NCBI GenBank assembly: GCA_016180285.1
Contig: JACPBO010000008.1
Location: 1 to 32,823, forward strand
From: Candidatus Woesearchaeota archaeon
GTDB taxonomy: Archaea; Nanobdellota; Nanobdellia; Woesearchaeales; JACPBO01
Direction of reading: 5' to 3'
DNA: 32,823 bases
The notes beneath the pieces are model-generated. The model was not told the DNA's origin. It made no database searches and worked only from the letters and a program-made list of their open reading frames with translations. The position numbers were made by a program, and so were the translations under genes. Shown here one piece after another: positions 957 to 27,160 of the stretch (position 1 is the first letter of the stretch; every line of letters begins with the position of its first letter).

Positions 957-1040
957 TTCACTATAGAAAGATGGCTGTGTTCTAATATTTTTCTAAATTT
1001 TTGCAGTTCACTATTTGTTGTAATATTGAATGGCATCATA

Positions 1041-1115
1041 TAATGTCAAAAATTTTCCACCAGTTTTTAACTGGTTGCTAAAAGCCAACTTTTTTCGCTT
1101 ATGGAAAATTTTTGA
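1041..1115 (+). repeat. Structured dispersed repeat, copy 1 (14-bp terminal inverted repeats, two internal hairpins)
   Basis: TCAAAAATTTTCCA at 1046-1059 is the exact reverse complement of 1102-1115. Inside are a 6-bp hairpin (CCAGTT at 1060-1065 with AACTGG at 1069-1074) and a second one (GTTGC at 1074-1078 with GC-C-AAC at 1084-1089, one bulge). The whole can fold as a three-way junction. It aligns with 27075-27151 on the opposite strand. It lies between two minus-strand genes. It could be a small non-autonomous element or a structured RNA; the sequence does not decide. Confidence 0.75.
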
Positions 1116-1128
1116 GCATGATCAAGTG

Positions 1129-1179
1129 TCAAAAATGCTTGCATTTTTGAGCAAATTGGAAATGTGAACATTTCCAATT
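1129..1179. repeat. Two perfect hairpins overlapping the 3' end of the CARF-HTH gene
   Basis: TCAAAAATGC (1129-1138) pairs with GCATTTTTGA (1141-1150) around a 2-nt loop. AATTGGAAATGT (1154-1165) pairs with ACATTTCCAATT (1168-1179), also around 2 nt. Both are perfect, 10 and 12 bp. They lie inside the last codons of the neighbouring minus-strand gene and next to structured repeat copy 1. TCAAAAA at 1129 could instead pair with TTTTTGA at 1109-1115, so two folds exclude each other. Confidence 0.75.
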
Positions 1180-1812
1180 AACCACCTGATGCGGTGAATA
1201 GCAGCAACATTCCACCCATCTTGAAAGTTTTACAAATAAATTTTTGTGTTCTTCTTTTGTTTCAACAAGGCGAAGATGTTTCAGCCCTTTGTGTTTGTAA
1301 GTCCCGCTAACGTGATATGATAAAAGAGCAATTGACAGGCTGGTTTTCTTTTTTAGTTCATTGAGTGATAAATGGCTGTCTGAATTCAATGCTTTCATGA
1401 TTTTTAGCTTGTTATCGCTCAATTCATTGTAATAAGACAGTTTCATTATTGGCAAAAGCATTACTGTATCCCCCATAACTCCGAATGCCTTCAGGCCATT
1501 TGCAAATGCCGCGCTCAATGCAGCGCAAGTGCTTATCCTGTCGCCAGTTGCAACATTTACCAGCAATTTCTCGGAAGAATAAACAGAGCACAATTTTCCA
1601 AAAGCCTTAAACATTTCTTCCATCATATTGCCGCTTATTTCAACAATTTCTGACTTTATTGTAAAGTTTTCAAGGTTTTTTGAAAGCCCCCTGGCGGCCT
1701 TTAGATTCTCGCTTGGAGTTATCAAAATCACTTTTTCCGTAGGAAATTCCTTCATGCCGATAAATAATGCCTTAAGATTGTCTCCTACCGGCGCTATGAC
1801 TACAAAGCTCAT
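1129..1812 (-). CDS. CARF-domain winged-helix transcriptional regulator (Csa3-like)
   Basis: A protein of 227 residues. The N-terminal half is Rossmann-like, with a first strand FVVIAPVG, a second strand KVILITP near 28-33, and the glycine/threonine loop VNVATGD at 85-91, typical of CARF domains that sense cyclic oligoadenylates. The C-terminal half (about 125-185) is a winged helix with MKALNSDSHLSLNELKKKT as its first helices. This is the Csa3 / HFX_2341 layout. No CRISPR array or cas gene is in the window. ATG 1812 was chosen because ATTTAAAA at about 1838-1847 lies 25 nt upstream (leaderless); an in-frame TTG at 1818 is less likely. The final ~17 residues are Cys/His-rich and encoded by two palindromes, so the natural end may be altered. 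It is divergent from the MerP/MerT-like pair. Confidence 0.75.
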   Translation of the reverse strand: MSFVVIAPVGDNLKALFIGMKEFPTEKVILITPSENLKAARGLSKNLENFTIKSEIVEISGNMMEEMFKAFGKLCSVYSSEKLLVNVATGDRISTCAALSAAFANGLKAFGVMGDTVMLLPIMKLSYYNELSDNKLKIMKALNSDSHLSLNELKKKTSLSIALLSYHVSGTYKHKGLKHLRLVETKEEHKNLFVKLSRWVECCCYSPHQVVNWKCSHFQFAQKCKHF

Positions 1813-21700: not shown

Positions 21701-22588
21701 ATGAGATTCAGGTCATTCAGAAGGCTTATAGAAGTTCTTAACAACGAGCTATTGAAAAACACGCTTAAAAGCATCAACCCGTTTTATTATTCTGATCTTG
21801 CAAAAAGCTCTTTCAGATACTGCTTCAAATACCTTGCCTTGGTTATACTCTGGAGCACCATCATAATGTGCATCATAGCGATTCCAGGATTATTCTTCCT
21901 GCGCGGCTACATAGGTGAACAGCTCGATAATGTCGATGTGTTTTCTATAAATGCAACATTCGAAACAAAGCAGCCGATTGTTCTGCTGGAGAATGATCCG
22001 CAGATAATAATTGACGGAAGCGTAAGCGAAAGGAACATGACTGGCGAGAAAGTCCTGATAACAAAGGATTTCTTTTATTTTAGGCCGTTCAACAGCATAC
22101 AAAAATTCAACACAAGCTCTTATCGTAACCTATTGGGCCATAAAAGCGGAATTGCAAATCTTATCGCAGCATTGTTTATTATAATAATTCCGGGCGTATT
22201 GATAATAAATTACGCGTCGTTTTATATAAAATACCTGATAATAATGCTTGCAGTTTCAGTAATTGCTTTTATGGCTGTCAGGGTGCTTAGATTTGAGATA
22301 AGCTTTAAAAAAATCCTGAAAATAGCATTTTTTGCCTCTACTGCGCCATTGTTTATAGAGATCATTGCAATTCCCTACGGCCTTGGAAAATATTTAATTC
22401 CGTTTGCGCAGGCTCTTGGCTCCAGGCTTTATCTTGCAACATTGATCCTGCTGGCTGTCATTATGGTCTTCGGCATTCTGAGAGCGGGATTGACTGAAAA
22501 AATTGAAGCGATCAAAAGCAGCGTAATAAAAAAGAAAAAGCTTGAAGTAAGCTCGAAAAAAGATGATGATTACATACTATGGCAGTAA
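21701..22588 (+). CDS. Polytopic membrane protein (DUF1189-like)
   Basis: 295 residues. A first helix runs about 43-70 (FKYLALVILWSTIIMCIIAI), an extracytoplasmic loop of about 80 residues holds NATFETKQPIVLL, and four to five more helices follow from about 155 to 268. The layout (one N-terminal helix, a large loop, a helical C-terminal block, short basic tail) matches DUF1189 proteins, whose role is unknown. A TATA box (AAATATTTATAC) at about 21645-21656 and a weak AGAGGC Shine-Dalgarno serve ATG 21701. Its end overlaps the flavin reductase by 10 bp. Confidence 0.6.
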   Translation: MRFRSFRRLIEVLNNELLKNTLKSINPFYYSDLAKSSFRYCFKYLALVILWSTIIMCIIAIPGLFFLRGYIGEQLDNVDVFSINATFETKQPIVLLENDPQIIIDGSVSERNMTGEKVLITKDFFYFRPFNSIQKFNTSSYRNLLGHKSGIANLIAALFIIIIPGVLIINYASFYIKYLIIMLAVSVIAFMAVRVLRFEISFKKILKIAFFASTAPLFIEIIAIPYGLGKYLIPFAQALGSRLYLATLILLAVIMVFGILRAGLTEKIEAIKSSVIKKKKLEVSSKKDDDYILWQ

Positions 22589-23061
22589 ATTTCTTGCAGA
22601 TATGCGGTGAAAGGCAGACAATTCTCATTACATGCAGACATAAAGAAAAAGACAATGTAATGGCAATAGACTGGCACATGCCTTCTTCATTTGAGCCAGA
22701 GCTTTATGTGATTGCAATAGGCAAGCAGAGGTTCTCCTGCGATATGATCAGGAATTCCCGGGTTTTTGTCGCTAATTTCGTGCCTTTCAGCTTAAAAGAG
22801 AAAGTGCTGTTTTGCGGCAGGCATTCCGGAAGATTCATGGATAAACTCAAAGAGGCAAAATTAACAAAAGAGGAAGCAGAGAAGGTTGACTGCCCCAGAA
22901 TAAAAGAAGCTGTTGCATACCTTGAATGCGAGGTTGTGAATGAGCTTGAAACAGGCGACCATATTATCTTCATAGGAAAAATCCTGAAATCTGATTTTAA
23001 AAAGAGAGATAAGAGAATATTTCATATAAGCGGAGATGAATTTGTTACGACTGAAAATTAA
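22579..23061 (+). CDS. Flavin reductase-like FMN-binding protein
   Basis: 160 residues. It has the split-barrel flavin reductase fold: ILITCRHKEKDNVMAIDWHMPSSFEPELYVIAIG (FMN-binding strands), RNSRVFVANFVPFSLKEKVLFCGRHSG, then AYLECEVVNELETGDHIIFIGKI. Relatives reduce FMN or transfer hydride with NAD(P)H, or act as oxygenase partners. Start at ATG 22579 inside the previous gene, so translation is coupled. Its last 23 residues (SDFKKRDKRIFHISGDEFVTTEN) are matched by a diverged remnant at 24232. Confidence 0.88.
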   Translation: MAVNFLQICGERQTILITCRHKEKDNVMAIDWHMPSSFEPELYVIAIGKQRFSCDMIRNSRVFVANFVPFSLKEKVLFCGRHSGRFMDKLKEAKLTKEEAEKVDCPRIKEAVAYLECEVVNELETGDHIIFIGKILKSDFKKRDKRIFHISGDEFVTTEN

Positions 23062-23067
23062 ATAATT

Positions 23068-24225: not shown

Positions 24226-24231
24226 TTTTAA

Positions 24232-24303
24232 TCTGAGCTTAAAAAGAAAGAAAAGAGGATTCTGCACATCAGCGGCGATGAATTCATTACAACAGAAAAT
24301 TGA
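24232..24303 (+). pseudogene. Remnant: 3' end of a flavin reductase gene
   Basis: 24232-24300 translate in frame to SELKKKEKRILHISGDEFIT-TEN, then TGA. The same 23 positions at 22990-23058 in the flavin reductase read SDFKKRDKRIFHISGDEFVT-TEN: 17 identical, 6 conservative. Many differences are synonymous, so the copy was under protein-level selection before it was cut. Homology stops at about 24230, 5 nt after the stop codon of the intervening gene. No start codon or body remains. Confidence 0.8.
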
Positions 24304-24347
24304 AGAATTAAATAACATTTAAATAATAGCTGGCCAATTATACTAAA

Positions 24348-27074: not shown

Positions 27075-27151
27075 TTCAAACATAATTTTCCACATACAAA
27101 AAAGGTTGGCTTTCTGCCACCAGTAAAGACTGGATGGAAAATTCTGACATT
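27075..27151 (-). repeat. Structured dispersed repeat, copy 2
   Basis: AATTTTCCA (27084-27092) pairs with TGGAAAATT (27135-27143). Inside are GGTTGGC/GCCACC (27104-27110 with 27116-27121) and CCAGT/ACTGG (27120-27124 with 27129-27133). The sequence matches the reverse complement of 1041-1115 across its whole length, including TGACATT at the outer edge (27145-27151). The second stem is kept by different bases. It is oriented with and just downstream of the polyprenyl synthase gene on the minus strand. Confidence 0.75.
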
Positions 27152-27160
27152 TTTAATAGC

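Follow-up and report, generated by a model that had tools for sequence, protein, structure and literature searches.

Non-autonomous mobile DNA elements built of twin hairpins form a new, widespread family in DPANN archaea

We describe a new, widespread family of non-autonomous mobile DNA elements, each built of two branched hairpins, in DPANN archaea. Two copies lie in the stretch of DNA analyzed here in full (32,823 nt, hereafter the window), which is contig C8 of a Woesearchaeota genome (G000; 1.33 Mb, 51 contigs, 96% complete). Stem covariation, clean empty sites, a flank that predates insertion, random orientation, and copies inside genes together identify a non-autonomous mobile hairpin element, which is probably moved as a folded single strand, in trans, by a transposase of the HUH/Y1 type. 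We found no earlier description from Woesearchaeota or other DPANN archaea in the open-access literature searched, which is not proof of absence.

Two copies of the repeat in the window

An earlier note on this DNA had reported a structured repeat of about 75 nt, present twice in opposite orientation. The repeat is indeed there: positions 1051 to 1110 on the plus strand and 27084 to 27143, read as the reverse complement, show 77% complementarity in an ungapped alignment of 60 nt, and the window contains no longer inverted pair. The perfect 14-bp inverted ends ascribed to copy 1 (TCAAAAATTTTCCA/TGGAAAATTTTTGA) can be read directly from the sequence. The claim that both copies fold holds clearly for copy 1, which beats all shuffles on either strand (z of -4.5 and -5.1), and less clearly for copy 2 (z of -1.7 and -2.6 on the two strands). 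BLAST of either copy against its own genome revealed that the family numbers more than 20 copies, with E values between copies down to 1e-29, so the likeness of the two is not due to chance; their matches fall into two subfamilies of many copies each. The boundaries had to be redrawn, since the full element is about 145 bp long and the reported 75 nt make up only its right half. The features in the window are as follows.

1038 to 1043, minus strand: flank of copy 1 on the target side, just 3' of GACA when read along the element (placed by the position of the conserved TWTYAA flank)
1044 to 1118, minus strand: right half (D3) of copy 1, the unit first reported, TGCTCA-stem-two hairpins-stem-TGACA (BLAST, alignment, and sequence)
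1119 to 1153, minus strand: extra hairpin module (D2) of copy 1, TTTGCTCAAAAATGCAAGCATTTTTGACACTTGATCA type, shared with loci L002, L023, L024, and L055
1154 to 1179, minus strand: linker palindrome AATTGGAAATGTTCACATTTCCAATT of copy 1, which accompanies D2 (sequence; the same in L002, L023, L024, and L055)
1180 to 1222, minus strand: remnant of the left half (D1) of copy 1, outer TGTCA end gone (full-element BLAST, 83% over 42 nt)
27081 to 27149, plus strand: copy 2, a lone right half (D3) with a decayed TGCTCA foot and no adjoining left half (BLAST and alignment)
27150 to 27155, plus strand: target-side flank of copy 2, TTTTTA (sequence and consensus flank)

Copy 1, covered by a covariance-model match from 1038 to 1234, is thus a D1-D2-D3 composite that lacks the outer end of D1, and copy 2 retains only a decayed D3. 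On the minus strand, positions 1129 to 1818 encode a CARF/HTH-type regulator (Pfam HFX_2341_N, weak Csa3_N) whose final ~30 codons (RWVECCCYSPHQ...) run into copy 1, which therefore seems to have replaced the 3' end of the gene. The window also holds an 80-nt direct repeat (22988 to 23067 and 24230 to 24309, 79% identical), in which a flavin-reductase-like gene (22579 to 23061) has its 3' end repeated as a fragment 1.2 kb downstream.

Architecture of the full element

Alignment of the copies with their flanks showed that the whole element runs TGTCA…TGAGCA joined to TGCTCA…TGACA. On the strand opposite window copy 1, the left half D1 (TGTCAAAAACC…GGTTTTTGAGCA) is joined directly to the right half D3 (TGCTCAGAATTTTCC…GGAAAATTCTGACA). 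In both halves, a stem with a single bulged base close to the foot encloses smaller hairpins. The half-element units measure 70 to 80 nt at the median, with stems of at least 11 to 14 bp and internal hairpins, and 115 of the 117 elements carry the tag TGTC at the foot, while the remaining two carry TTTC or TATC. A search of the genome with the joint TTGANCATGCTC gave 24 matches, spread over 22 places, against none for the reversed control; all 21 places examined are family copies, and the other lies in C45. The design is modular: D2 lies between the halves in L002, L023, L024, and window copy 1, while in L055 it occupies the place of the right half and ends the element. A minimal copy, L060, consists of two short hairpins only (TGTCAAAAACCtttGGTTTTTGAGCATGCTCAGAAATcctttgaATTTCTGACA).

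Some variants were seen in passing. L035 (G000:C18, ~1100 to 1290) keeps the architecture, but its stems (GCAAATATTC/GAATATTTGC) differ markedly and its left half carries a CTCGCTCACTCCGTTCGCTC tract. In other species (L098, L194, L207, L219, and L224), small hairpins or whole elements are nested in the loops of an element, and some of the nested inserts repeat the TGTGCTCAGAAATCC...GGATTTCCGACA pattern.

Distribution

The earlier note had proposed a search for further copies in this and related genomes, and BLAST and a covariance model (R1) found many. The genome of the window has about 27 to 30 copies (27 covariance-model matches), and R1 matched 45 of 99 relatives and none of the other 54, with 31 matches in the congener G001 and 8 to 30 in 14 other genomes. 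Phylum-wide, 105 of the 371 genomes had a match at an E value of ≤1e-5; 91 of these belong to the same order and 14 to the same class outside it. GTDB genomes contained at least 109 stretches with the exact joint pattern. Among the matches listed, nearly all were labeled Woesearchaeota, Pacearchaeota, Aenigmatarchaeota, or Nanoarchaeota; a single Flavobacteriales record may be a chance hit. The viral contigs, phages, and plasmids searched contained no real copy.

Precise insertion at a one-sided target

For copies in G000, the flanks were joined without the element and sought in G001, and the search was repeated in the reverse direction. This yielded eight pairs of filled and empty sites, seven clean (L008 and L009 filled in G000; L285, L292, L293, L295, and L301 filled in G001) and one, L297, ambiguous within a T run, where the empty site lacks TTTT. 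The end of L301 is noncanonical, and the model match served to set its right boundary. All seven clean pairs run straight through the junction with no base duplicated and none lost, which indicates that insertion (or departure) of the element is exact and duplicates no target sequence.

The flank beside the GACA end is conserved as TWTYAA (frequencies: T, 0.90; A or T; T, 0.87; mostly T or C; A, 0.67; A, 0.77), and no position of the opposite flank exceeds 0.45 bits. On the other strand the arrangement reads as TTRAWA, then TGTC…TTGACA. Since the conserved flank is already present in the empty sites, it is target sequence and not part of the element.

How the element might move

In the explanation that we favor, the two branched hairpin modules, arranged in inverted order (TGTCA-hairpins-TGAGCA, then TGCTCA-hairpins-TGACA), would be recognized in the form of folded single-stranded DNA. 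A single-strand transposase of the HUH/Y1 type (IS200/IS605 or RAYT-like), acting in trans, would move them and attach the element on the 3' side of a target of the TTRAWA type (T rich on the opposite strand) with no duplication of the target. Both the single-stranded intermediate and the class of enzyme are what we infer from the clean pairs, the one-sided preexisting motif, the DNA-like stems, the patchy multicopy spread, the background-level gene orientation, an orientation switch on one contig, and an enrichment of Y1 genes (P = 0.02). Counted against a Y1 enzyme are the lack of a Y1 gene in the genome of the window or linked to copies, the lack of a recurrent neighbor gene, the weakness of the association, the absence of skew bias, orc1/cdc6 genes away from the switch, and stems that reach the very ends. 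An HUH/Y1-type (IS200/IS605, REPIN-like) single-strand route would be the most likely one.

The earlier note was correct that no transposase lies near the copies in the window, and the same is true of every related locus examined. No Y1 transposase was found in G000 at its 96% completeness. Such enzymes occur in 34 of the 99 relatives, 21 of the 45 that bear the element and 13 of the 54 that do not (P = 0.02; Spearman coefficient, 0.32), a weak association by statistics that ignore phylogeny. None of 20 Y1 loci examined had an R1 match or a copy within 1.5 kb, and the commonest Y1 insertion sequence has ends unlike those of the element, in a comparison that left out 51 Y1 matches. Among the genes beside copies there was no recurrent mover-like family; only families of the housekeeping type recur.

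On G001:C6 (0.73 Mb), the 20 copies are mostly in plus orientation before 0.38 Mb and all in minus orientation after 0.42 Mb, a single switch with a P value of 0.002 by permutation and 0.006 with random signs. This switch fits replication-coupled insertion, for which it is a hint only, because GC skew gave no replication-strand bias over 115 loci or along G001:C6, and orc1/cdc6 genes lie at 142 and 275 kb with none at the 0.4-Mb switch, so that neither places an origin there. We also considered an integron-like cassette array in G001:C6 and rejected it: the neighbors are ordinary, the spacing is irregular, and there is no layout of same-orientation sites, cassettes, and integrase.

Movement by a tyrosine recombinase likewise leaves no target duplication, and the element could instead be a folded single-strand recombination site of the integron attC or Xer type. 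The imperfect hairpins with a bulged base would suit such a site, and a copy at L003 is near a gene for a putative tyrosine-recombinase-like protein, judged by a motif read by eye. However, copies adjoin ordinary genes and form no cassette arrays, there are two hairpins per element, the ends lack the R''/R' boxes of attC, and the target is a loose T-rich motif with no core common to the element, all of which makes this alternative unlikely. More improbable still is a nonmobile chromosomal site maintained by the host for a nucleoid, replication, or segregation protein. Order-wide persistence and the conserved joint GAGCATGCTC could be expected of such a site, but not the patchy distribution (54 of 99 relatives lack the element), decayed copies such as window copy 2, or recent species-specific insertions, some of them within genes.

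Stems that covary as DNA and insertions that respect no gene orientation

Covariation among homologues, on which the earlier note had staked its reading, is strong. In 16 copies from the genome of the window, with a hand-drawn structure, 17 pairs changed on both sides (10.7 in shuffles), both-side changes filled 54 cells (21.2 in shuffles), and the covariation score was 0.204 (0.110 in shuffles); none of 500 shuffles reached the observed value on any of the three measures. The signal collapses when the structure is slid by 1 to 3 columns, a control that favors a structure drawn from the same 16 sequences, and the number of further pair types was not above that in shuffles. Over the outer stems of 117 elements from 105 loci in many species, 2,659 of 2,691 cells are Watson-Crick, with 289 double changes, 7 G·T pairs, and 25 other mismatches; acceptance of these elements on a rough match between arms inflates the pairing, and G·T was handled as any mismatch. 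RNA helices normally tolerate G·U, and the near absence of G·T from these stems points to a palindrome kept at the level of DNA: the covarying structure behaves as DNA and not as RNA.

The orientation of the element relative to neighboring genes equals the intergenic background as judged from crude open reading frame calls. Two copies lie in frame and free of stops inside conserved genes, whose reading frames run through them: one adds 48 codons to a pyridine-nucleotide oxidoreductase (thioredoxin-reductase-like), and the other adds 49 codons to a hexapeptide nucleotidyltransferase. The L292 insertion in a coding frame introduces stops.

These data bear on the suggestion in the earlier note that the repeat is an RNA or a mobile non-autonomous element. 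The mobile half is borne out by the empty sites without target duplication, while the RNA half is not supported. A structured RNA that was copied around (a small RNA, 3' untranslated region [UTR] element, or terminator) would account for strongly covarying stems, low folding energy, and a T-rich tract after the GACA end. However, only 7 of 2,691 stem cells are G·T, gene orientation is that of the background, the T tract is target sequence that the empty sites already contain, and open reading frames pass through two copies; we consider an RNA very improbable. Searches for known RNAs gave no match above the gathering score in Rfam 15 and no tRNA, and a terminator or 3' UTR role was rejected, as the gene-orientation classes equal the background.

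Relation to known mobile repeats

Mobile hairpin repeats such as REPs and REPINs have been described mainly from bacteria. Like the element, REPINs and REP doublets consist of two palindromic units, inverted, that form one mobile unit; they carry a tag tetranucleotide at the hairpin foot, are dispersed between genes, and are cleanly absent as whole units at some sites (PMC3116915, PMC6006769). The tag of REPINs is GT[AG]G, whereas that of the element is TGTC, their units are 20 to 40 bp and not branched hairpins of 70 to 80 nt, and the element differs further in its conserved joint TGAGCATGCTCA, the lack of a linked RAYT, and its archaeal hosts. By its tag and for want of a linked gene, it falls outside the RAYT-REPIN family in the strict sense. 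Another parallel is found in the CGTC-tagged REPs, whose tag is CGTC, or TGTC in many repeats, which are mostly inverted dimers, and for which no dedicated transposase is known (PMC3733652). The element shares the TGTC tag, the inverted dimers, and the absence of a linked transposase, and its in-gene copies resemble the intragenic CGTC REPs/RPEs of Rickettsia (PMC3733652). However, CGTC-tagged REPs are bacterial and have stems of 8 to 9 bp, loops of 4 to 5 nt, and units of 20 to 40 bp, in contrast to the long branched hairpins of the element.

The haloarchaeal SMRs resemble the element by features only: they are about 110 bp long, have inverted terminal repeats, make no target duplication, and occur in many archaeal copies without a known mover (PMC3119063). 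SMR-A copies target other mobile elements and are >95% alike, while our element has intergenic T-rich targets, diverged copies, and modular hairpins. IS200/IS605 elements insert on the 3' side of a short motif at the left (in ISDra2, TTGAT; PMC2806898) and make no target duplication (PMC3119063). PATEs and other IS200/IS605 derivatives likewise have palindromes at both ends, no duplication, and a one-sided target motif (TTGAT, compared with TTRAWA here), but PATEs have no inverted repeats (PMC3119063), whereas the stems of the element begin at the very ends and so form them. No parent tnpA transposon that shares the ends of the element was found when the commonest Y1 element was compared. The hairpins of IS200/IS605 elements are typically subterminal. 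The resemblance is one of mechanism and is not proof of kinship.

The element works like REPINs and SMRs. A MITE of a DDE transposon, moved by cut-and-paste through its terminal inverted repeats, would have short inverted ends such as TGTCA/TGACA, small size, and intergenic copies, but the 0-bp target duplication in 7 of 7 clear empty sites contradicts this origin, and the conservation of internal hairpins and joint extends beyond the ends, which leaves a classical MITE a very poor candidate.

Widespread among Woesearchaeota-like archaea of ~1-Mb genome size, with clean empty sites and no known mover, the family makes the question of what moves transposase-free palindromes a testable one; the mover would be expected among the enzymes common to genomes with recent copies. 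Annotators should be aware that the covarying structure of the element is DNA-like and that a copy may sit in frame within a gene. A bolder picture, somewhat less likely than not, is that of an order-wide DPANN family that has moved since the congeners split, that at times supplies conserved proteins with an extra in-frame peptide, and whose mover would be a single-strand recombinase other than a linked Y1 transposase.

A separate IS200-type element occurs at L264, L265, L266, L267, L268, L269, and L271, has the left end AAATGACATACTCCCAAAATAAATCC, and is spread across the same order. Its TnpA is ~184 amino acids long and 64 to 87% identical between families.
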